Of a DNA stretch of 64,000 nt, positions 26,624 to 35,305 are shown piece by piece. Under the pieces are notes generated by a model that did no database searches, was not told where the DNA came from, and worked only from the letters and a program-made list of their open reading frames with translations. The first letter of the stretch is position 1, and each line of letters starts with the position of its first letter. Origin of the DNA: Geoglobus acetivorans (lineage in GTDB: Archaea; Halobacteriota; Archaeoglobi; Archaeoglobales; Archaeoglobaceae); assembly GCF_000789255.1 (NCBI RefSeq), contig NZ_CP009552.1, positions 248,001 to 312,000 on the forward strand. Reading direction: 5' to 3'. The translations under genes and the position numbers were made by a program.

Positions 26624-26673
26624 TGCCCGGAGCCGGATTTGAACCGGCGACTATGCGGTCTTCAGCCGCACGC
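26624..26673 (+). repeat. attL, 50-bp copy of the tRNA-Phe 3' part
   Basis: Identical over 50 bases to 35232-35281. It begins at the discriminator base of tRNA-Phe and ends just past the anticodon stem, where the left copy continues CAATTTAC and the right copy TCTCCCAAG. It is not a functional tRNA because the 5' part is missing. Confidence 0.93.
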
Positions 26674-27636
26674 CAATTTACAAGCTCTATTAGCGAAATA
26701 GAGTCGAATAATGGATTAATTAGGTATCCTGAGGAAGCAAAAGGAAGCAAATTGCACCAAAAATATAATGGCTACAATGAAAGAATAAAGTTTGAAGATA
26801 TTGATTACGAGGATTTTGAGCTTTTCTGGACGGCAGAGAGGAAAATGAAAACCAGCAAGGGGAGAGTTAAGAGATTATACAATGTTCTCAGGAAGGTTCT
26901 ATCTGGAAAGGTGATCAATGAGGAATCTCTGAGGGAAGGATTCCACAAAACAACAAACAAGAAGGATTACGTGAATGCTGTAAGGGTTCTGCTGGAGTAT
27001 CTGAAGGTTAGGAAGCTAATGCCAAGGGAAGTCGTTCAGGAGATCCTTGAACAACCATTCTTAACACCAATAAGATCAAAGAGGAGAGGAATCTATCTGA
27101 AGGATGAGGAGATCAGGCAGGCTTATGAGTGGTTAAAAGAGAAGTGGAAGGATAAAGATACCGAACTATTGTTCAAACTGCTTGTGTTCTCAGGGATAAG
27201 GCTTGATCATGCTCTGGATCTGCTCTATAACTTTGATCCAAGGAAGCTTGAGTTTAAGGGGAGAGTTGCAAGGTATCCATTAACCAATATTAGCAATGAG
27301 ATCAAATCTGGAGAGTATGCATTCATGCCGGCAGAGTTTGCAAGGAAGCTGAAGAAAATCAAAAAGAAGCTCAATTACCAAACGTGGGAGAACAGGATCA
27401 ACGTTAAGAGATGGAGGGGAGATGAGAAATACAAAAAGAGCAGAGTTGATGCGAATGCCATCAGGAAATGGTTTGGGAACTTCTGCTTAAGCCATGATGT
27501 TTCTGAATCTGCAACGGAATACTTCATGGGGCATGCAATAAAGGGAATGGGAGGAAAGGCTTACTTTGATCTCAGGGATAAGCTGAGCTGGAGGGAATAT
27601 GAGAAGATTGTTGATAAATTCCCAATTCCACCCTAA
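26624..27636 (+). CDS. Integrase, C-terminal piece of split SSV-type tyrosine recombinase
   Basis: Carries the catalytic domain of an archaeal tyrosine recombinase (Phage_integr_3-like). The reading frame enters through attL (PGAGFEPATMRSSAAR) and continues QFTSSISEIESNNG. Active-site candidates are the Arg of FSGIRLDH, the basic RKWFGNF box and the Tyr of KAYFD (codon 27562-27564). The ORF is open upstream to 26566 only by chance, in chromosomal DNA. The native start is in the other piece at 35003; joined through att the protein has 413 residues. In the integrated state this piece has no natural start, so integrase is presumably off until excision. Confidence 0.87.
26684..26696 (+). repeat. 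13-mer GCTCTATTAGCGA next to attL
   Basis: The same 13 bases recur exactly at 27675-27687 and 29675-29687 inside the long repeats. Here it lies 11 bases inside attL and is followed by AATAGA, forming a short inverted repeat TCTATT/AATAGA. It may be an arm-type integrase site or an element regulator site. Confidence 0.5.
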
Positions 27637-27652
27637 TTTTTTTGGCAAAATT

Positions 27653-27773
27653 GTTCTATTAATTTTAACAGGATGCTCTATTAGCGATTTAATGTTTCAT
27701 TTCTACTGAAGCACATGAGTATCTGTTTGAGTTTTCTAATATATTAGACGGCTCTAACAAAAATATTGTTAGA
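27653..27773. repeat. Long direct repeat copy 1 with terminal hairpin
   Basis: Bases 27653-27757 match 29653-29757 with a single mismatch (27693). The repeat includes the palindrome TCTAATATATTAGA (27735-27748). It ends in a hairpin TCTAACAA-AAATA-TTGTTAGA (27753-27773) whose arm sequence differs from copy 2 but still pairs. It lies between the integrase end and the convergent antitoxin gene. Confidence 0.85.
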
Positions 27774-27890
27774 AACTCTAATTGTAACAGAACTACAATG
27801 AAGTTTACTTTTGTGCAGAGTTGGAGAAAGGCAACGACCTTAACAAATGGCTCTACTAACTCTCACAGATGGGATGACTAAACAAAAATT

Positions 27891-28088
27891 CTACTCATTG
27901 GCTTTCCTAATCTTCCTCGCAATATCTTCTACGCTCTCATCGAGCCACTCACGCCTTTCTTTTGTGTAGTCTCCACTACCAGTATCGAAGCTCTGGAGGA
28001 ATCTGACCATTCCTATCGGCCCAAGAGCTTTCGCAAGGGCCTCAATACCTTCCTTCCTGATTTCATTGAGGGTTTTAGCGCTGCTCAT
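27891..28088 (-). CDS. Putative antitoxin partner of the PIN protein
   Basis: A 65-residue, charged, mostly helical protein encoded just downstream of the PIN gene with a 14-base overlap. The beginning (SSAKTLNEIRKEGIEALAKA) and the RREWLDESVEDIARKIRKANE end are the type of small partner often found next to PIN proteins of the CCLNRPFDD class. Antitoxin after toxin is the less common order but is known. It belongs to the integrated element cargo. The assignment rests on position and size, not on a recognised domain. Confidence 0.6.
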   Translation of the reverse strand: MSSAKTLNEIRKEGIEALAKALGPIGMVRFLQSFDTGSGDYTKERREWLDESVEDIARKIRKANE

Positions 28089-28524
28089 CTTCGAGCACCT
28101 CCATTAACCAAGTTACTGGATTTTCAACTTTAATCTTAATACGATCTTCATTTTCTTTAACTTTTCTCACGAAATCATCATCTGTTGTGAGCAGAATATC
28201 TGAAGATTTTTCTGCACAGGCCAAATGCAGAGCATCAATTCCTTTCAAACCCATTTTTTCAAACTCTGAAGCCATTTTAACAACCTCATCATCCACGAGA
28301 ACTTTTTCTTTTGAAATTGATGCCAGAACTTCAACCTTACTCCTTCTCTCATCGTCCGGAATTTTCGAAATTTCGTAATCTACAGCTTCACTCCCCACGA
28401 GAGTCCAGTCTCCCAGACATCTGGTAAGGATTACCAGCACAGCCTCAGATTCAATTCTGATCCTATCCTGATTTTGATCATCAAATGGCCTGTTAAGGCA
28501 GCAGACATCCATGTAAATTCGCAT
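28075..28524 (-). CDS. PIN-domain toxin-like ribonuclease
   Basis: A 149-residue PIN-fold protein of the class beginning MRIYMDVCCLNRPFDDQNQD. Acidic active-site candidates are Asp6, Glu in EAVDYEISK, Asp in LKGIDALHLACAEKSS and Asp in LLTTDDDFVRK. It would act as an endoribonuclease toxin, held in check by the small protein encoded downstream. It lies in the element between the first long repeat and a lipoprotein gene. Translation starts at ATG 28524 with AT-rich sequence upstream. Confidence 0.8.
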   Translation of the reverse strand: MRIYMDVCCLNRPFDDQNQDRIRIESEAVLVILTRCLGDWTLVGSEAVDYEISKIPDDERRSKVEVLASISKEKVLVDDEVVKMASEFEKMGLKGIDALHLACAEKSSDILLTTDDDFVRKVKENEDRIKIKVENPVTWLMEVLEDEQR

Positions 28525-28599
28525 ATGGTTGCTTATTTGATTTTCTCACTTTAAAATGTTTTTCTCCGCCCAAGAAGTTATTCGAGTAAAAGGTAAGAC

Positions 28600-29397
28600 T
28601 CAGACCAGAGATTCACTCCTGAGAGCCTCCAGCAAACCAGCCCAGCCCTCGTTTATCTCCCCTCTCAGCATCCAGTGGATTTCGCTCAGAAGCAATCCGT
28701 ATCCCTTAGGGCCGAGAACTGCCTGAGTTTTCGCCAAACCCAGTGTTGCCGCAATTTTGCCAGTTGTTGTAAATGCTGCTCTGTAGGCTACCTTTTCTTC
28801 CAAAAAATAGAAATCAGCCATGAACAGGAATAGGTTCTTGTAGAACTCCCAGTAATCTTCATCACTATCGCTTGGCAGTTTTTCAGCTGACTCGTACAGT
28901 TTGTTGTATGAATCGATGAGAGCTGAATAACCAAGTGCTTTCTTAACTTCCTGTATCCCTGCAAAATTCTCTCTGGATAGATCAATTTCAGGTATTTCAG
29001 TTCTAAACCGACCATTGAGTGTTTTTGCAATGTGATTGATCCTGTATGTTTGCCTGTTGAAAGTTTCGTAATCCTCAAAGAACGTTTCGTTAATTGGGCC
29101 TATGGCTTTCATTTCTTTGGCTAATGAATCTGCGAGCTTCTTGTGAGATTCATTGATGGATTTCTCCTGCATTAGGGCTTCAGCATGGAACGTGAGCAAT
29201 TTGATAATTTCCTGATTGGATGGATTCTCTTTCAATTCATCATAAAGAGCAGTAAGTATTTCCGTATCAAATCCGAGTTCTTTCGCTTTTTCGATCAACT
29301 CTTCTTGGTTTAATGTTTCTCCCAATTGAGAGCAGCCAGCAAGTAATAAGGTGAAGAATATCAGAGAGGCATAAATAACACCCCTCGTCTTCCACAT
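28600..29397 (-). CDS. Uncharacterised lipoprotein of the integrated element
   Basis: A 265-residue exported protein with a signal peptide and lipobox LLAGC (Cys22). The rest is helical and charged with no recognised domain; a segment near 210-235 (TTGKIAATLGLAKTQAVLG) is more hydrophobic. An AT-rich promoter region with TTTAAATATAAT lies about 25 bases before the ATG. Lipoproteins on archaeal elements may alter the cell surface, for example against superinfection, but nothing in the sequence shows this. It is the only exported cargo protein I see. Confidence 0.6.
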   Translation of the reverse strand: MWKTRGVIYASLIFFTLLLAGCSQLGETLNQEELIEKAKELGFDTEILTALYDELKENPSNQEIIKLLTFHAEALMQEKSINESHKKLADSLAKEMKAIGPINETFFEDYETFNRQTYRINHIAKTLNGRFRTEIPEIDLSRENFAGIQEVKKALGYSALIDSYNKLYESAEKLPSDSDEDYWEFYKNLFLFMADFYFLEEKVAYRAAFTTTGKIAATLGLAKTQAVLGPKGYGLLLSEIHWMLRGEINEGWAGLLEALRSESLV

Positions 29398-29501
29398 AAC
29401 CTTTATTCCTTTAAATATTATATTTAAAATTTTCCAATAGCAAAAATATGTTTATGGAAATGTAATTGGCTGGGTTTTTTTACAAAAGAGGGAAAATATG
29501 A

Positions 29502-29630
29502 ACCCAAAGGTATCCAAATGTTGATTGGGGCAACTACAAGCATTCGCTCCCAGAGTTTGTTTATCTGATTTACATGGAGAGCTGGAGGAATGTTCACCTG
29601 ATACCCAAGGAAGCCTATGAGTTGCTTTGA
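29502..29630 (+). pseudogene. Gene fragment (42 codons) before repeat copy 2
   Basis: A frame without a start, bounded on the left by TGA, reads TQRYPNVDWGNYKHSLPEFV and on to HLIPKEAYELL before a stop. Its composition looks protein-like and it ends just before the second long repeat, as the integrase gene does before the first. It may be the 3' end of a lost plus-strand gene. The rest of 29398-29652 shows nothing else I can name. Confidence 0.35.
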
Positions 29631-29652
29631 TTTCATCATTTTTGGTAGAATA

Positions 29653-29773
29653 GTTCTATTAATTTTAACAGGATGCTCTATTAGCGATTTAAGGTTTCAT
29701 TTCTACTGAAGCACATGAGTATCTGTTTGAGTTTTCTAATATATTAGACGGCTCTAATATTATTAATATTAGA
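29653..29773. repeat. Long direct repeat copy 2 with terminal hairpin
   Basis: Nearly identical to 27653-27757 over 105 bases, exactly 2000 bases apart. Its terminal hairpin is TCTAATATT-ATT-AATATTAGA (29753-29773). Relative to copy 1, two stem pairs changed on both sides, keeping the pairing. A further palindromic motif CTATTAG-TT-CTAATAG follows near 29850-29866. Confidence 0.85.
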
Positions 29774-29930
29774 ACCTCCATTAGCAACAGAGGGATGATA
29801 CAGATATTTTTGTGCAGAATGAGAAGAACAAACAATCTCTAACAGATCACCCTATTAGTTCTAATAGAGGTCAAACGAATCAAAAATTCCACACCTGTTC
29901 GTGTTTGACCTCTCCAGAATGCAGAAAATC

Positions 29931-30323
29931 TCACCTATCAGACTCAAGAACCTTCTTCAAAGCTTCTGATACCCTTCCTACAAACTCTTCTGCATCGTGT
30001 ATTATCTCCTCAGCCTCCTCCTTTCTGGCTTTATAGTATACATCGTAATCAACTCTCTCCCTCATCTACATACCTTTCGAAAGGATTTTTCCATAGATCT
30101 CATCTATGTATCCCTCACTGACGAATCTCAGCCCAAGCTCCGAAACAACTCCTTTGTGTGTTTTTGGATGTCTTCCCTTCACACTGAGAAGAGCTTTCGA
30201 GGCATAGAACATTGAGTAGTAGGCCTGACTCACTGCCGCATTGTATTTCCCGTTCTCAAACAAAATTCTTGCAGATTCGAGGGCCTCATAAGCCCTCTCC
30301 AGAAATTTCTCATACTCTGGCAT
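29931..30323 (-). pseudogene. HEPN-domain protein gene interrupted by in-frame TAG
   Basis: HEPN partner of the adjacent nucleotidyltransferase. The first 85 codons (YEKFLERAYEALESARILF, AYYSMFYASKALL) end at TAG 30066-30068. The same frame resumes immediately with MRERVDYDVYYKARKEEAEE and runs 44 more codons to a TGA at 29931. That tail is the expected C-terminal helix of HEPN proteins of about 130 residues, so a nonsense mutation has truncated the gene. The HEPN catalytic RxxxxH motif is not evident, which fits the MNT-associated non-nuclease or degenerate type. Confidence 0.75.
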
Positions 30324-30633
30324 AGACCGTTACTCCCTCGCTGAGAACGTTTTTTATGAACCCAGTTTCTTCAGCCCTCAGCATCTCGAAATGCTCTCTG
30401 CTCATCACAATCGGTGAGATGTAAATCCCGTATTTGAGTGAGAGAGGATAGGTTACATCGATAACCTCACTGAGCGTTACGTCTCCAACCACAAGAACAT
30501 CCATATCGCTTTCTTCATTCATCTCATCTCTCGCATACGAGCCGAAGAGGATAACCAGATCTATCCTACTTTCAAACTCTTCTTTAAGTTTCCTGGAGAG
30601 CTCTTCAACTACTCTTTCGGCTTCAACCCTCAT
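30310..30633 (-). CDS. MNT-type nucleotidyltransferase
   Basis: Minimal nucleotidyltransferase of about 107 residues with the signature LFGSYARDEMNEESDMDVLVV, whose GS and DxD residues bind the nucleotide and metal. In MNT/HEPN pairs this protein modifies and neutralises the HEPN partner by nucleotidylation. ATG 30633 is chosen because GGTGATCTG directly precedes it; the frame extends 12 codons further upstream. It overlaps the HEPN gene by 14 bases. Because the HEPN gene is interrupted, the pair is probably inactive or altered. Confidence 0.82.
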   Translation of the reverse strand: MRVEAERVVEELSRKLKEEFESRIDLVILFGSYARDEMNEESDMDVLVVGDVTLSEVIDVTYPLSLKYGIYISPIVMSREHFEMLRAEETGFIKNVLSEGVTVYARV

Positions 30634-30723
30634 CAGATCACCGCCGTGCAACCACTCAATCTCCACCAAATCTTGTATGAGCCACTATTTAAAGCCTGCT
30701 CAGCACAGATAAGTGCTAAGAGA

Positions 30724-31110
30724 TTATTTGGCTGAGCTCACGATCAGCCTGTAATCATCCTCAGGAATATCCCTCATCGCCTTGCCCATTAAGTGACCGC
30801 TCCACTTCTGCTTGTTGGTTATGAACTTCAGCTCTGGAATTAGAGGTTTGAACTCAACGGGCTTATCGAAGATTTTGATTGGTTTGAGCCTGATTCTGAG
30901 TGGAAAAGTTTCGTTTCCCATTCCTTTTGGTGTTTTGAAAATCCTGCTTGAATCTCTGAAGACTTCTGAAACTGCTTCATAAACTGCAACAATTCTCGGT
31001 TCTTTGATTTCGTCTTTATCCCTTTCCTGTTTGAGGTAGATGAGAAGTTTATCTCCGGGCTTTAATTTGTATTTTTCAAAATCGTTCTCTGTAATCTTGC
31101 AATAGGGCAT
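30724..31110 (-). CDS. EVE-domain protein fused to an HsdS-derived N-terminus
   Basis: The bulk is an EVE domain (PUA-like, expected to bind modified bases): [30 protein letters not shown] and [24 protein letters not shown] proteins normally begin with a short aromatic strand-helix region; here that part is replaced by [19 protein letters not shown], which is type I specificity-subunit sequence. The join is near KPGDKLLI, shared by both families. ATG 31110 has GGGAGGAT directly upstream. HsdS sequence continues upstream in frame without a start codon (31111-31317). So this is a chimera born from a deletion. Confidence 0.7.
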
Positions 31111-31317
31111 ACTATCCTCCCAATTAATTCCATAATCAGTAATGTCAGTTATTCGTAGTAGCTTAATACCTGTTTTTTCCTCTACTGCTGAAGTAGTTAT
31201 GCCATATTGAAAATTTCCGATCTCACCAAGCCTTACAACCTCCCAATCCTCTGGAATTCTGCCGATTGGTGTTTCTTTGTATCTGGATGTTATGTTTGCC
31301 CCTCCTCTTTCAACTTT
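31111..31317 (-). pseudogene. hsdS: HsdS 5' fragment in frame with the EVE gene
   Basis: Type I restriction specificity subunit remnant. The frame reads [20 protein letters not shown], then [19 protein letters not shown], directly into the EVE chimera. This is the standard start of the first target-recognition domain. No ATG, GTG or TTG precedes it, and its first codons overlap the 3' end of the PIN gene. Only about 70 codons remain of a gene normally above 400. Confidence 0.7.
31241..31278. repeat. 38-bp hsdS-derived direct repeat, copy 1
   Basis: Identical to 32308-32345. Both encode [11 protein letters not shown] on the minus strand, the start of HsdS. The VapBC pair lies between the copies, so recombination between them could delete or exchange that cassette. 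Confidence 0.85.
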
Positions 31318-31739
31318 CTAACCGCTTCCAAAGCTCCGTTCAATTCGTCGAGTAAGTAATATGCATCAACCCCATATTTCCGACCATTAGCAACCATCAA
31401 TCTGTCGGAAGATATCAGAATAGAGTTCGTTAATTTAGCAGTTGCAATGAAATATGAATCTGCAGCTCTGGGATGGACTTGCTCGGCAACATTAAAAGCC
31501 TCGTCAAACACAAAATCCTCAGAAAGAACTTCAAAGTCGGCAACGAGTTCTTCAACATCTTCTTTCGAAATATTAATTCCAAGCCTCTTTGCAACAGAAA
31601 TTAACTCAATGAGGAATATCTTGGGTATAAAAACAGTTAAACCACCAATTGAACCCAAAAACTCAGTTGCCTTTTTATTTCTATCATCATTTCTCTCAAA
31701 AAGATAATCCACGAAAACAAAGGTATCAATAACGAGCAT
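31290..31739 (-). CDS. vapC: PIN-domain toxin (VapC type) of the element
   Basis: A 149-residue PIN ribonuclease toxin. Acidic residues expected in the active site are in [14 protein letters not shown] (Asp5), [15 protein letters not shown] (Glu), [14 protein letters not shown] (Asp) and LISSDRLM (Asp). The antitoxin gene lies directly upstream with a 14-base overlap. The pair sits between two copies of a 38-bp hsdS-derived repeat, which suggests it moved in as a cassette into a former restriction operon. Confidence 0.85.
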
Positions 31740-31950
31740 TTCTTATCTCCTCTAACGTTCTGTAAGCTCCTTCAACTTTCTTAGATTTCCTCTCAAGTTC
31801 CTCAAGCTTACTGTAAAATCTCTTCGTTACTCTCTTCGTTTCTTTAATCTCTACTCTTACGATTTCTCCCTCCCTTAACTTAACTTTCCTGAGAGGCTTG
31901 AAAACACCATTTCGGTAAACCATTTCGATAGTTTCACTCACGTGAATCAC
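31726..31950 (-). CDS. AF2212/DUF104-type antitoxin
   Basis: A 74-residue antitoxin with the DUF104 hallmark [19 protein letters not shown], a small beta domain, followed by a basic helical tail that would wrap the PIN toxin. The family is named for an Archaeoglobus fulgidus protein, so it is at home in this lineage. The gene overlaps the PIN gene by 14 bases. It probably controls its own transcription, although no operator can be identified. Confidence 0.82.
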
Positions 31951-32060
31951 CTGTTTGAAACTCTGTATGTTTACTCATTACTCTAAAATACTTAAAAAAC
32001 TTTCAGGCTTGCTATTGTTAAAGCGGATCTATTCTAAACCCGGTGAAATATCATAGCCAT

Positions 32061-32354
32061 CTAAGAACGCTCATAGAGCTCTGTTTTCAGCTCCTCCCAG
32101 GATTTATCTACCTTCAGCGCTCCTCTTAGCTCGTTCATCAGTTCAAAGAATCTGTCTCTTTTGTTGAAGAACTTGGCAGTTTCCTCAACTGCTTTTTTGA
32201 ATGCTTTTTCAGCGTGATCGGGAACAGATACTTTGATTGTCATCTCACCCATGAGCTTAAGTTGTTCTGAGATATTGCATAACTTATTCCAGCTTTCCTT
32301 AAAACAATCCCAATCCTCTGGAATTCTGCCGATTGGTGTTTCTTTATATTCCAC
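32061..32354 (-). CDS. Orphan antitoxin-like protein fused to an HsdS start
   Basis: The 97-codon frame begins at GTG 32354 with [15 protein letters not shown], the HsdS start. It then switches to unrelated sequence and from Met38 (ATG 32243) reads MTIKVSVPDHAEKAFKKAVE through a helical Lys/Glu-rich tail, which looks like a complete VapB-like antitoxin of 60 residues. GGGTGAG precedes ATG 32243, so the antitoxin may be translated on its own. No toxin gene is adjacent. As with the EVE chimera, an hsdS 5' end has been joined to a toxin-antitoxin part. Confidence 0.6.
   Translation of the reverse strand: MEYKETPIGRIPEDWDCFKESWNKLCNISEQLKLMGEMTIKVSVPDHAEKAFKKAVEETAKFFNKRDRFFELMNELRGALKVDKSWEELKTELYERS
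32308..32345. repeat. 38-bp hsdS-derived direct repeat, copy 2
   Basis: Identical to 31241-31278 and encoding the same HsdS peptide. Here a GTG start with GGAGAG-like sequence precedes it, so this copy probably keeps the native hsdS start. Confidence 0.85.
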
Positions 32355-32376
32355 TCTCCAATTTTTCCCTCTTTAA

Positions 32377-33018
32377 CTAAAATTCTATTTTTGGAGTAAA
32401 TTCTTGAATGAACTTGGAGTGTTCTAAAACGTCCAATGTACCCCTAACTTTTTTGCACTCTGGTAAATCTTCCCTAAATAAACAAGTGTTTCTTTTAATA
32501 TTTCCAACTGTAGTGTTCGCAACTATTTTAACTAAGATGGGTAAGTCCCTCCATTCCCACTTTTTAGGATTTTTAGGATTTAGAGTTACATTACACCTAT
32601 CCAAAAAATCTGAATATACGTCCTTGAAAATTAGTTTTAATTCAATAACTTTTGATCCATATGGTCCAATTTCTATAGGAAAGACATCTAAATAATCGGC
32701 AGGTCTTTCTGAAACTACCAATTCACTGTTAATCATTCCAAGCACAAATGGGTACATCTTTATAGCCTTCTCTGAATATCTGACAAACACAACTAAATCA
32801 GTAATTGAGCCAGATGCGTTACCTTTGTTCTCAAATAAAACTTTCATTGTAAGAATTAAGTCGTCTTTACCGTTATCCTTCCTTTCAATTTTAAAACAAC
32901 CTTCCACCACTTTAAATTCAATTTTTGGCTCTTCTTTCTTTAATTTTTTCCAGTATAGGTATAATGATGCGATTCCTGGTGAAGCACTAATAACGTAACC
33001 TAAAACTTGGAAATCCAT
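32377..33018 (-). CDS. Uncharacterised membrane-anchored protein
   Basis: About 213 residues with one N-terminal hydrophobic helix (DFQVLGYVISASPGIASLYLYW) followed by a basic patch and a soluble region rich in strands (LTMKVLFENKGNASGSITDLVVFV), probably an immunoglobulin-like beta sandwich. I do not recognise a family. ATG 33018 is preferred over GTG 33027 because GAGGTG lies eight bases upstream of it. Codon use is very AT-rich even for this element. Similar helix-plus-beta-sandwich proteins occur in many genomes without known function. Confidence 0.5.
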   Translation of the reverse strand: MDFQVLGYVISASPGIASLYLYWKKLKKEEPKIEFKVVEGCFKIERKDNGKDDLILTMKVLFENKGNASGSITDLVVFVRYSEKAIKMYPFVLGMINSELVVSERPADYLDVFPIEIGPYGSKVIELKLIFKDVYSDFLDRCNVTLNPKNPKKWEWRDLPILVKIVANTTVGNIKRNTCLFREDLPECKKVRGTLDVLEHSKFIQEFTPKIEF

Positions 33019-33092
33019 TTCTACCACACCTCACAATTTAGTTTTAACTCATTTAATAAACTTTAATTTTGCTCTCACTTATACGCCCTCCC

Positions 33093-33350
33093 TCACCTTT
33101 CAAGCTTCAAAACCAGAATAACTCTCTCTTCTCTATCAATCTGGTAAATCAGCCTGAAATCCCCTAAACGAACTCTGTACCTGTCCTGATGCCCTTTGAG
33201 TTTCTTTATATCGAATTTCCTGAAAGGAACAGGATTATCTTTTAAGGCATCCAGAAATTCAGAAAATTTAACTCTGTGGGATTCTGGTAACTCCTTAACC
33301 GATTTTGCAACTTTCGGATGAACTATAATCTCGTAACTCGTAAACCAAGC
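33093..33350 (-). pseudogene. RelE-type toxin gene lacking a start codon
   Basis: The frame reads TSYEIIVHPKVAKSVKELPE, then FRKFDIKKLKGHQDRYRVRLGDFRLIYQI-type RelE/ParE core and ends in VILVLKLERR-like sequence before TGA. Between the preceding in-frame TGA (33351-33353) and the conserved core there is no ATG, GTG or TTG. The expected start region overlaps the 3' end of the HsdM-antitoxin chimera, where the bases that would supply the antitoxin stop and toxin start seem to be missing. It is probably not translated efficiently. Confidence 0.72.
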
Positions 33351-34108
33351 TCAGCTTTTAGTTTATCCCATGGAACCCCGTTCTTTTTCGTCTCCTCAGC
33401 AAGCCTGTCAAGTTCTCTTGCCTCTTCCTCACCATACTTCTGCTTAACATAATCATATGCCCTGATAAGCATCCTCGCATAGCCAGCAGCAGGATCATAA
33501 ACGCTGTCCATTGGCTTTGGATCAACAATCCTGACAATCAGATCAACAACCTCAGAGGGTGTGAAAACTTCACCTTCCTTAGCCTTTTGCGGAGCGAAAT
33601 AACCAATCAACCATTCGTAGGCATCACCGAGGATGCTATCACTCGCTCTTCCAAGATTTAATCCGCTGAAAAGCTCAAAAAGCTGAACAAGAATATCAAA
33701 ATTATCTCTGTGCCTCGTAAACTCAAGAAAATCGAGCCTGTCAACCACTCCCTGCAATTCAGGATTTTTCTCAGCAAGAAGTTTCAACGCCTCGGAAAGC
33801 CTTACAGGCAGCCCATTAATGTTCTTTCTCAACTCTTCCCATGTGTATCTCTCAGGATACTCAAACCTGTGGAAGGATCTATCCTTTGCAAGGTTTTCAG
33901 CCTCTTCTTTGCTCAACCCTTTCTCAAGCAGTGTTTTCAGAGCTTCGTTGTATTCTCTTTTCCATTCATCACTGAGCCGTTTCAGAAAGAGGAGAACGAG
34001 AATGTACTTGTAATCAACCCTCGTTCTTATCAGATCCGCAGCCTGCTTGCACGCTCTTATCAGCTCATCTCTTGTGGTCTCAATCTCGATGTAATCGGCA
34101 AGAGTCAT
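33323..34108 (-). CDS. Truncated HsdM methyltransferase fused to a RelB-like tail
   Basis: Residues 1-230 are the helical N-terminal part of a type I DNA adenine methyltransferase (RADLIRT-like start, FFAPQK/FTPSEVVDLIV, SVYDPAAGYARMLIRAY). The AdoMet motif DPAxGSGG has become DPAAGYARM (205-213) and everything after YGEEEAREL is gone, including the catalytic NPPY. From about 232 the chain reads LDRLAEETKKNGVPWDKLKA, a typical RelB antitoxin C-terminus, and the RelE remnant follows. ATG 34108 is favoured by a TATA-like box about 28 bases upstream. Not an active methyltransferase. Confidence 0.72.
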   Translation of the reverse strand: MTLADYIEIETTRDELIRACKQAADLIRTRVDYKYILVLLFLKRLSDEWKREYNEALKTLLEKGLSKEEAENLAKDRSFHRFEYPERYTWEELRKNINGLPVRLSEALKLLAEKNPELQGVVDRLDFLEFTRHRDNFDILVQLFELFSGLNLGRASDSILGDAYEWLIGYFAPQKAKEGEVFTPSEVVDLIVRIVDPKPMDSVYDPAAGYARMLIRAYDYVKQKYGEEEARELDRLAEETKKNGVPWDKLKAELGLRVTRL

Positions 34109-34155
34109 TACAACAAATGAGTTCATCCTGTATATTTTATTTTTCTGGAAAGTGT

Positions 34156-34400
34156 TTGATTGCTGCTGATCCCATGTTGATCTCAATCAACGTTGAATCA
34201 ACAGTTGATTGATTGCTGATTTATGCTGATCAGCATGTTGATTGATTGTTGATTGAGCGTTGATTGCTGTTGATTTGTCCGTTGATGCTGCTGATCTGAA
34301 TAAATCAACTCATGTTGATCCTGCTGATTTGAGAATCAACATGGTGTTGATATTGCTGATTGATTGTTGATCAACAGTTGATTTTGTGGTTGATTTTCTG
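34156..34400. repeat. Iteron-like array of TTGAT/CTGAT units
   Basis: About 245 bases hold roughly twenty copies of TTGAT (both strands) plus about seven CTGAT. Units are often GTTGATT or GCTGATT at irregular 6-20 base spacing. Perfect palindromes ATGCTGATCAGCAT (34223-34236), GTTGATCAAC (34366-34375) and TCAACGTTGA (34187-34196) are embedded. It lies between the ribbon-helix-helix gene and the HsdM chimera. It may be a replication origin, a partition site or an operator array of the element. Confidence 0.7.
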
Positions 34401-34418
34401 TTGAATTTCTGCTGATGA

Positions 34419-34634
34419 TCACTCCTCATTTTTAGTCAATACCAAACTCGAAATTATGTGTTCATTTTCTTGTGTGTGCGCATTCGCTACTTGTGAGAGG
34501 TAGAGCTTTATTGCCTTGGATAATTCCTCACCTAGATACTTCCAGTGATAGCTGTATTTGGTTAAAACGTAATTCTTGAAAGCCATCCATTCATCTTCAT
34601 TCACGTGAACGCTGATTTTTACTGGTTTATCCAT
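34419..34634 (-). CDS. Ribbon-helix-helix-like small protein
   Basis: A 71-residue protein starting KPVKISVHVNEDEWMAFKNY, a basic strand followed by helices (LGEELSKAIKLYLSQVA), as in CopG/Arc-type DNA-binding proteins. The start at ATG 34634 is supported by GGAGAGGTGATCTG directly before it. It sits between the iteron-like array and a set of TTCTTCC repeats, so it could bind either as a copy-number, partition or transcription regulator. The exact family is not certain. Confidence 0.6.
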   Translation of the reverse strand: MDKPVKISVHVNEDEWMAFKNYVLTKYSYHWKYLGEELSKAIKLYLSQVANAHTQENEHIISSLVLTKNEE

Positions 34635-34680
34635 CAGATCACCTCTCCAGAAATCGCATAGAACCGTGAAAAATGCTCAT

Positions 34681-34816
34681 TTCTTCCGATATGCATTACT
34701 ACTATGCATTTTTTGCACATTTCTTCCTGTCTTCCTTTATTTCTTCCTGTCTTCCAATGTGCATAAAATGAATGAATGTTGGTATGAAATTCATGTATCT
34801 TTCTTCCAATGTGCAT
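34681..34816. repeat. TTCTTCC-ATGTGCAT repeats upstream of the RHH gene
   Basis: Three copies of TTCTTCC(A/G)AT(G/A)TGCAT-like sequence occur at 34681-34696, 34750-34764 and 34801-34816. TTCTTCCTGTCTTCC is repeated at 34721-34735 and 34741-34755. A minus-strand 96-codon ORF (34634-34924) runs through them, with MHIGRK-type peptides repeating; it is more likely repeat translation than a gene. Confidence 0.55.
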
Positions 34817-34966
34817 GAAAAGAAGCTCTCTCCTGCCTTCATTTGCGATCACCTGATACTCTCTCGTGGAGTGTGCACACACATGAATTTGTGCATGCAA
34901 AAATTTCGTACATTGTGGTTGCAATCTTTCTTGTGTGCAATCTGAATAAATTTAGTTTTTGTTACA

Positions 34967-34981
34967 AAAAATTTATATATC
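34967..34981 (+). promoter_or_regulatory. TATA-like box of the integrase gene
   Basis: AAAATTTATATATC lies about 27 bases before ATG 35003, so the split integrase keeps its own leaderless promoter at the right end of the element. Confidence 0.55.
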
Positions 34982-35002
34982 TGTTATGCAATATTTATCA
35001 CT

Positions 35003-35281
35003 ATGACGTCCATGGACGTTCGTGAACGTCCAGATAGAATAAACTCTGAGAAAAATTCAGAATCTCAGAAAAAAGGCAGGAGAAAGCTCAGAATGACTTT
35101 GTGGTTTTCAAGGGAGAACTACGAATACCTGAAAGAAAACTACGATGGCAGGATTTCTGAGATAATGGATGCTTTTGCAACCTTCCTGAGAACTGGAAAC
35201 GTTGTAGAGGTTTCAGTTTTAAGAATTGGAATGCCCGGAGCCGGATTTGAACCGGCGACTATGCGGTCTTCAGCCGCACGC
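35003..35281 (+). CDS. Integrase, N-terminal piece of split SSV-type tyrosine recombinase
   Basis: First 93 codons of the integrase, ending in attR. Residues 28-75 (RRKLRMTLWFSRENYEYL, then GRISEIMDAFATFL) look like a small DNA-binding helix or ribbon-helix-helix region. The frame then enters the att core as GMPGAGFEPATMRSSAAR, exactly matching the frame that leaves attL at 26624. In the integrated state it runs on into chromosomal DNA to a stop at 35350. In the excised circle it would join the piece ending at 27636 to give 413 residues. Confidence 0.85.
35232..35281 (+). repeat. attR, 50 bp within tRNA-Phe
   Basis: Identical to 26624-26673. It covers the discriminator, acceptor 3' strand, T arm, variable region and anticodon arm of the intact tRNA-Phe, which is reconstituted at this end. 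Confidence 0.93.
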
Positions 35282-35305
35282 TCTCCCAAGCTGAGCTACC
35301 CGGGC
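35232..35305 (-). tRNA. tRNA-Phe (anticodon GAA)
   Basis: On the minus strand the acceptor GCCCGGG pairs with TCCGGGC (one G-T pair), the anticodon stem TGCGG/CCGCA holds CTGAAGA with anticodon GAA, and the T arm is GCCGG TTCAAAT CCGGC. It is the integration target; the 3' 50 bases are duplicated at 26624. A TATA-like TTAAAAATA lies upstream near 35330-35340. Confidence 0.95.

Follow-up and report, generated by a model that had tools for sequence, protein, structure and literature searches.

In-frame joints at hsdS sequences in an archaeal SSV-type integrative element are probably deletion scars of a dead type I restriction operon

The odd joints between hsdS sequences and other genes in the window analysed here (the whole stretch of 64,000 nucleotides, G000:C1:248001-312000, in a closed 1.86-Mb genome that we take to be that of Geoglobus acetivorans) are most probably deletion scars, accompanied by an old leader remnant, in a dead type I restriction-modification (RM) operon that is carried by an SSV-type integrative element. 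We assign this reading a probability of roughly 0.85. It differs from the original prediction for this locus, in which in-frame joining at one hsdS end was taken to suggest a recombination platform.

The joints lie within a single integrated element, which is delimited as follows:

26624..35281, no strand assigned: integrated mobile element of 8.6 kb, flanked by 50-bp duplicates of the 3' end of tRNA-Phe, with a split integrase

The two 50-bp copies are located at 26624-26673 and 35232-35281, the tRNA-Phe gene itself spans 35232-35305, and the integrase, which contains a Phage_integr_3 domain, is split between the element ends (35003-35278 and 26674-27636). The split integrase and the duplicated tRNA 3' end identify an SSV-type integrative element, and the same layout is found in genome G026, presumably that of Geoglobus ahangari. 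The sister element of G026 occupies the same tRNA-Phe gene (50-bp att copies at L108:2054 and L066:14823) and has the same split integrase, but measures about 15.3 kb versus 8.6 kb here. All of its genes but one are encoded on a single strand, in the order hsdM, 211-aa ORF, relB remnant, membrane ORF, leader, antitoxin, PIN toxin and hsdS, followed by a 351-aa ORF, an AbrB/PIN pair, hsdR, the YgjP metallopeptidase, an opposite-strand ORF and EVE. Comparison shows that the sister element and two other genera keep the ancestral operon order, which would have been hsdM, accessory slot, hsdS, accessory genes, hsdR, YgjP metallopeptidase and EVE; a position of EVE 3' of hsdR and YgjP is also found in G014 and G032. 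Among the relatives considered below, we assume that G001 is Archaeoglobus fulgidus, G014 A. sulfaticallidus and G020 A. veneficus. The element of the window contains no recombinase gene other than the tRNA integrase. A 153-bp direct repeat (90% identical, 27639-27791 and 29639-29791) is also present inside it, with its copies exactly 2000 bp apart, one after the integrase end and the other after the region of a 265-aa ORF.

In the whole genome, neither a match to HSDR_N nor a complete hsdS (Methylase_S) was detected, while the controls of both searches were positive, and hsdM is truncated. The genome does not hold the complete hsdR, hsdM and hsdS of a type I RM system, and the view that the RM operon of the element is broken is well supported by these sequence searches. 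Indeed, decay had already been raised as an alternative to the platform, and it is borne out by the absence of HsdR and a complete HsdS from the genome, by the hsdM::antitoxin deletion and by the loss of the RelE-like toxin start, both of which are described below.

The repeat that first drew attention to the locus, a 38-bp piece at 31241-31278 and 32308-32345, is real and extends further than was reported, to a direct repeat of 42 bp on the minus strand with 41 of 42 positions identical (98%):

31241..31282, minus strand: HsdS leader copy 1, the start of an hsdS remnant (from the 42-bp repeat, its translation and the starts of family hsdS genes)
32308..32349, minus strand: HsdS leader copy 2, an orphan remnant 5' of an antitoxin (from the repeat; also in the Geoglobus sister element, and in decayed form in G022 and A. 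fulgidus)

The 38-bp core is identical in both copies, these two sites are its only matches genome-wide, and a chance origin is negligible, as reversed-pattern controls gave 0 matches in 55 genomes. Both copies translate to one 13-residue HsdS leader peptide. A leader block of this kind starts the first half of hsdS genes throughout the Archaeoglobaceae, while the second half of these genes starts with a related but distinct block, FKDTEIGRIPKEW. Since the leader block opens hsdS genes family-wide, the repeat is, as judged from these alignments, the conserved 5' leader of hsdS.

Downstream of copy 1, two remnants are joined:

31063..31304, minus strand: hsdS 5' remnant, comprising the leader and the first part of TRD1 (from its translation)
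30724..31068, minus strand: EVE domain without its first 35 residues, in frame with the hsdS remnant at LKPGDKL (the profile is entered at position 33)

The statement that copy 1 runs in frame into EVE thus holds for the frame but not for a joining at the repeat, because about 70 codons of genuine HsdS follow copy 1 before EVE begins. The joint is located near 31062-31075, about 215 bp from the repeat, and the switch occurs at a KPGDKL motif, a short stretch coded by both genes. The hsdS remnant is 50% identical to the TRD of the intact L125 HsdS, which runs on as KFKLKKGDILIARIG at the point where the frame of the remnant turns into EVE, and the hsdS-side endpoint of the deletion is defined by proteins at this 50% identity; a search of the family for the same TRD1 in an intact hsdS revealed no relative. 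The remnant consists of the leader and a partial TRD1 of about 75 aa, as compared with the two recognition domains and about 400 aa of an hsdS product, and its Pfam Methylase_S score of 14.1 bits is below the cut-off. Likewise, the EVE part matches profile positions 33-144 only. Complete EVE relatives (n=7) start 35 residues earlier, beginning MAYWLCITNEENW, and the N-terminal strand and helix needed for a complete PUA-like barrel are missing from the window copy. Next to the EVE remnant lies an MNT-HEPN toxin-antitoxin pair (30066-30669). Its HEPN (30066-30323) looks truncated, with 85 aa versus 133 aa in G023, and is 79% identical to the G023 HEPN.

The surroundings of copy 2 contain the following features:

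32377..33027, minus strand: 216-aa ORF of unknown kind (a 27%-identical protein is encoded directly 5' of the intact hsdS in G004)
32253..32300, minus strand: conserved, promoter-like antitoxin spacer (the sister element reads AAGTTATATAATATC, the window a degraded AAGTTATGCAATATC; the promoter role is putative)
32061..32252, minus strand: orphan antitoxin (MGEMTIKVSV...), with a PIN toxin partner in two other genomes that is missing here
31726..31950, minus strand: VapB antitoxin, AF2212-like (profile match)
31290..31739, minus strand: VapC-type PIN toxin (profile match; 77% identical to the A. fulgidus copy)

The frame of copy 2 continues into the antitoxin MGEMTIKVSVPDHAEKAF, as had been proposed, but this frame is open in the window genome only. 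In G026, leader 2 encodes 16 residues followed by a stop (TGA) and is out of frame with the antitoxin, and decayed versions of leader 2 occupy the corresponding site in G022 and, in A. fulgidus, a site immediately 3' of the hsdM stop. Leader 2 and the antitoxin ATG are separated by a conserved spacer, with a TATA-like box about 25 bp 5' of the ATG that is degraded in the window. Since the sister element keeps the TATA-like spacer and the ATG but not the open frame, it is very likely that the antitoxin uses its own ATG and that the fusion frame is incidental; leader 2 was rejected as the true antitoxin start on the same grounds. As far as sequence comparison can tell, the block of leader 2 and antitoxin predates the divergence of the two Geoglobus elements. 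In G026 and G022, relatives of this antitoxin pair with a PIN toxin that overlaps the antitoxin end. In the window, only a few bases of the PIN partner are left and the next genes are a VapBC pair of the A. fulgidus type, so the VapBC pair reported between the repeat copies was found as described. The two genes are intact, adjacent and overlapping (60.6 bits for AF2212-like VapB and 60.7 bits for the PIN domain), the A. fulgidus counterpart of VapC likewise lies directly upstream of hsdS, and dN/dS between the window and A. fulgidus pairs is about 0.1. VapBC and the MNT-HEPN pair may still be working as independent toxin-antitoxin modules.

It is most improbable that the HsdS-EVE chimera functions as a two-part recognition protein and that the leader-antitoxin frame yields a functional fusion. 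Both frames are open in the window genome, EVE and HsdS are both nucleic-acid recognition modules, and the EVE part has no stops and shows a dN/dS of about 0.12 versus its G. ahangari relative, a pattern from which recent function of the EVE part may be suspected. However, the HsdS::EVE frame has no ATG, GTG or TTG start at leader 1, the first such codon being located at 31110, downstream of the leader. Moreover, the first strand and helix of EVE are missing, HsdS breaks off within TRD1, neither HsdR nor a complete HsdM is available as a partner, and in the sister element leader 2 does not share a frame with the antitoxin. The chimeras occur in no other genome: no second HsdS::EVE chimera was detected in 55 family genomes or in a collection of 84,980 species, and no relative of it in the viral contigs scanned. 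In the scan of the genome collection the matches were EVE-only or HsdS-only with one exception that crossed the joint (L125), which was rejected as a relative of the chimera because it is an ordinary HsdS. We rejected a functional fusion because there is no start codon, the EVE N-terminus is missing and the arrangement is not conserved.

A second in-frame joint, which was absent from the original prediction, connects HsdM to the C-terminus of a RelB-like antitoxin (KYGEEEARELDRLAEETKKNG):

33413..34186, minus strand: 5' part of hsdM, with HsdM_N and the start of N6_Mtase (domain match), joined to relB within 33413-33430
33323..33430, minus strand: C-terminus of a RelB-like antitoxin, in frame with HsdM (alignment to G026 and A. 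fulgidus)
33096..33341, minus strand: ParE/RelE-type toxin frame without a start codon

The segments aligned to G026 overlap by 18 bp at this joint (33413-33430), where hsdM GGCGAGGAAGAGGCAAAGAAGCT is similar to A. fulgidus relB AGCGAGGAAGAGGCCAAGGAGCT. The overlapping ATGA of A. fulgidus and other relatives reads ACGA at the RelE/ParE start in the window, and the antitoxin stop and the toxin start are therefore both lost. Upstream of hsdM, at 34190-34410, there is a cluster of short GTTGATT/GCTGATT repeats that is partly conserved in G026, G007, G004 and G014 and could represent operator or iteron-like sites.

The deletion-scar reading would order these changes as follows. Before the divergence of the two Geoglobus elements, a toxin-antitoxin block between hsdM and hsdS would have left a leader remnant 5' of the antitoxin. 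Later, a deletion of ~7.8 kb would have joined hsdS codon ~75 to EVE codon ~36 at similar KPGD-coding sequence. This would have taken out hsdR entirely, the larger part of hsdS and the N-terminus of EVE, with an in-frame scar left behind. On the G026 map, a single deletion of this size accounts for the absence of the rest of hsdS, of hsdR, of YgjP and of the EVE N-terminus. A further deletion of 1.3-1.8 kb at similar GAGGAAGAGGC sequence would have fused hsdM to the RelB-like antitoxin, and the orphan antitoxin would have lost its PIN partner; as in A. fulgidus, VapBC now separates the antitoxin from hsdS. The in-frame joints would then be by-products of deletions at similar coding sequence rather than selected fusions. 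It should be noted that three in-frame joints of three have a chance of about 1 in 27, which counts against scars; joining at similar coding sequence favours an in-frame outcome of deletions. The suggestion that hsdS had been cut and reused at one start point is not sustained, and a common hsdS point for both joints was rejected, because the joints are about 200 bp apart in hsdS coordinates. Nor does a platform at this gene end find support, as the EVE joint would be an operon deletion at short coding homology, the frame that links leader and antitoxin is not conserved, the antitoxin possesses a start region of its own, and the only recombinase is the tRNA integrase.

The leader itself shows unusual conservation. 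Its synonymous sites have a mean pS of 0.36 across genera versus a median of 0.645 for equally long hsdM windows (12 codons from the same five genomes in both cases), and only 6 of 250 hsdM windows have a pS as low. Furthermore, the two Geoglobus genomes share 36 identical bp in leader 2, whereas the adjoining spacer differs by roughly 17%. Plain decay does not explain this identity beside a diverged flank, and gene conversion from leader 1 would be its likely cause. Synonymous conservation and leader 2 identity would fit a leader that undergoes gene conversion or homologous exchange. They would be traced most simply to HsdS recognition domains, which are known to recombine at the conserved repeats that flank them (PMC3077401); the leader might also be used for swapping accessory modules.

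Accessory genes embedded in the type I RM locus do vary among relatives. Between the two leader copies, the G026 sister element has a PIN toxin versus VapBC in the window. Across the family, the hsdM-hsdS gap is occupied by an antitoxin, a RelB/RelE remnant and VapBC in A. fulgidus, an antitoxin and PIN in G026 and G022, ORFs of 95, 216 and 227 aa in G004, VapB and a broken VapC in G007, a 556-aa protein in G014, a PIN protein of 201 aa in G020, a membrane ORF in G032, DUF3800 in G010, RelBE in G019 and SLFN_AlbA_2 in G025. In G012 (L083:407-3309) it contains a TIR-type (APAZ-like) protein with a short prokaryotic Argonaute, and in G023 (L076:5911-8974) a long-type Argonaute-like Piwi protein, whose best PADLOC matches are pAgo and PprPIWI, with an MNT-HEPN pair; in G053 it is empty. 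The expectation of varying content in relatives is thus upheld in a weaker form, for the leader interval and for the family gap, without extending to a platform, and relatives show half of the opposite pattern, a stable duplication without varying downstream content.

These observations could tentatively be taken to mean that the hsdM-hsdS gap in the type I operon of Archaeoglobaceae integrative elements is an exchange slot for defence modules, with homologous recombination using the nearly invariant leader as one arm and duplicated leaders as footprints. We consider it rather doubtful that the hsdS leader acts as a homology arm, such that accessory cassettes are swapped via hsdM and the leader and a duplicated leader marks the event. 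The neighbours of the leader indeed differ, being VapBC in the window and A. fulgidus, PIN in G026 and G022, the 227-aa ORF in G004, the 201-aa PIN protein in G020, pAgo with MNT-HEPN in G023, the TIR-type protein with short pAgo in G012, SLFN_AlbA_2 in G025 and DUF3800 in G010. In addition, the 216-aa ORF before leader 2 resembles the protein before the intact G004 hsdS, and both the synonymous conservation and the identity of leader 2 between species would agree with such a role. However, the hsdS-hsdR gap is likewise variable, and the leader is therefore not special as a boundary. Furthermore, the synonymous conservation is based on 12 codons and may reflect the swapping of HsdS recognition domains that is known from other species, and no dedicated recombinase is present.

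Variable defence genes in the hsdM-hsdS gap follow a pattern that is already known for type I loci. DarTG2 is located between hsdS and hsdR in EPEC, at a site called a potential recombination hotspot (PMC12255303), TgvAB is found in the type I RM locus of Vibrio cholerae (PMC11411939), and rlo/mlo genes in the type I loci of Campylobacter jejuni (PMC5183652). As in these loci, accessory or defence genes lie among hsdM, hsdS and hsdR and differ between relatives; unlike them, the present locus is on an archaeal SSV-type element, its main slot is the hsdM-hsdS gap, and its RM genes are broken. The leader is a conserved block of the kind that flanks recognition domains and acts as a recombination site in DOMO, the movement of HsdS domains via recombination at conserved repeats (PMC3077401), but the window has one truncated hsdS and its repeat flanks toxin-antitoxin genes rather than recognition domains. 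Direct hsdS repeats and toxin-antitoxin genes in one type I locus are also superficially reminiscent of the pneumococcal SpnIV tvr locus, where hsdS repeats and toxin-antitoxin homologues accompany real shuffling, a recombinase and spare recognition domains (PMC6265443). A phase-variable specificity locus, in which the repeats at hsdS starts switch the expressed content, is nevertheless extremely unlikely here, since the element has no second TRD set, no TvrR-like or other shuffling recombinase, no repeats flanking alternative recognition domains and no intact system, with both hsdM and hsdS truncated. Standalone EVE genes are known to adjoin archaeal type I RM systems (PMC7641849), and EVE likewise closes the RM operon in relatives of the element; the window copy differs in that its N-terminus is gone and the remainder would have been fused to HsdS by deletion.

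Altogether, apparent in-frame fusions in one genome (HsdS-EVE and HsdM-antitoxin) probably dissolve into deletion scars when they are placed beside a sister element. Our findings bring archaeal cases to the known set of type I restriction loci with embedded defence genes, and the small, well-conserved hsdS leader represents a testable recombination arm. If the exchange slot is real, the modules that it carries in the Archaeoglobaceae would be toxin-antitoxin pairs, prokaryotic Argonautes, HEPN-MNT and Schlafen-like ATPases.
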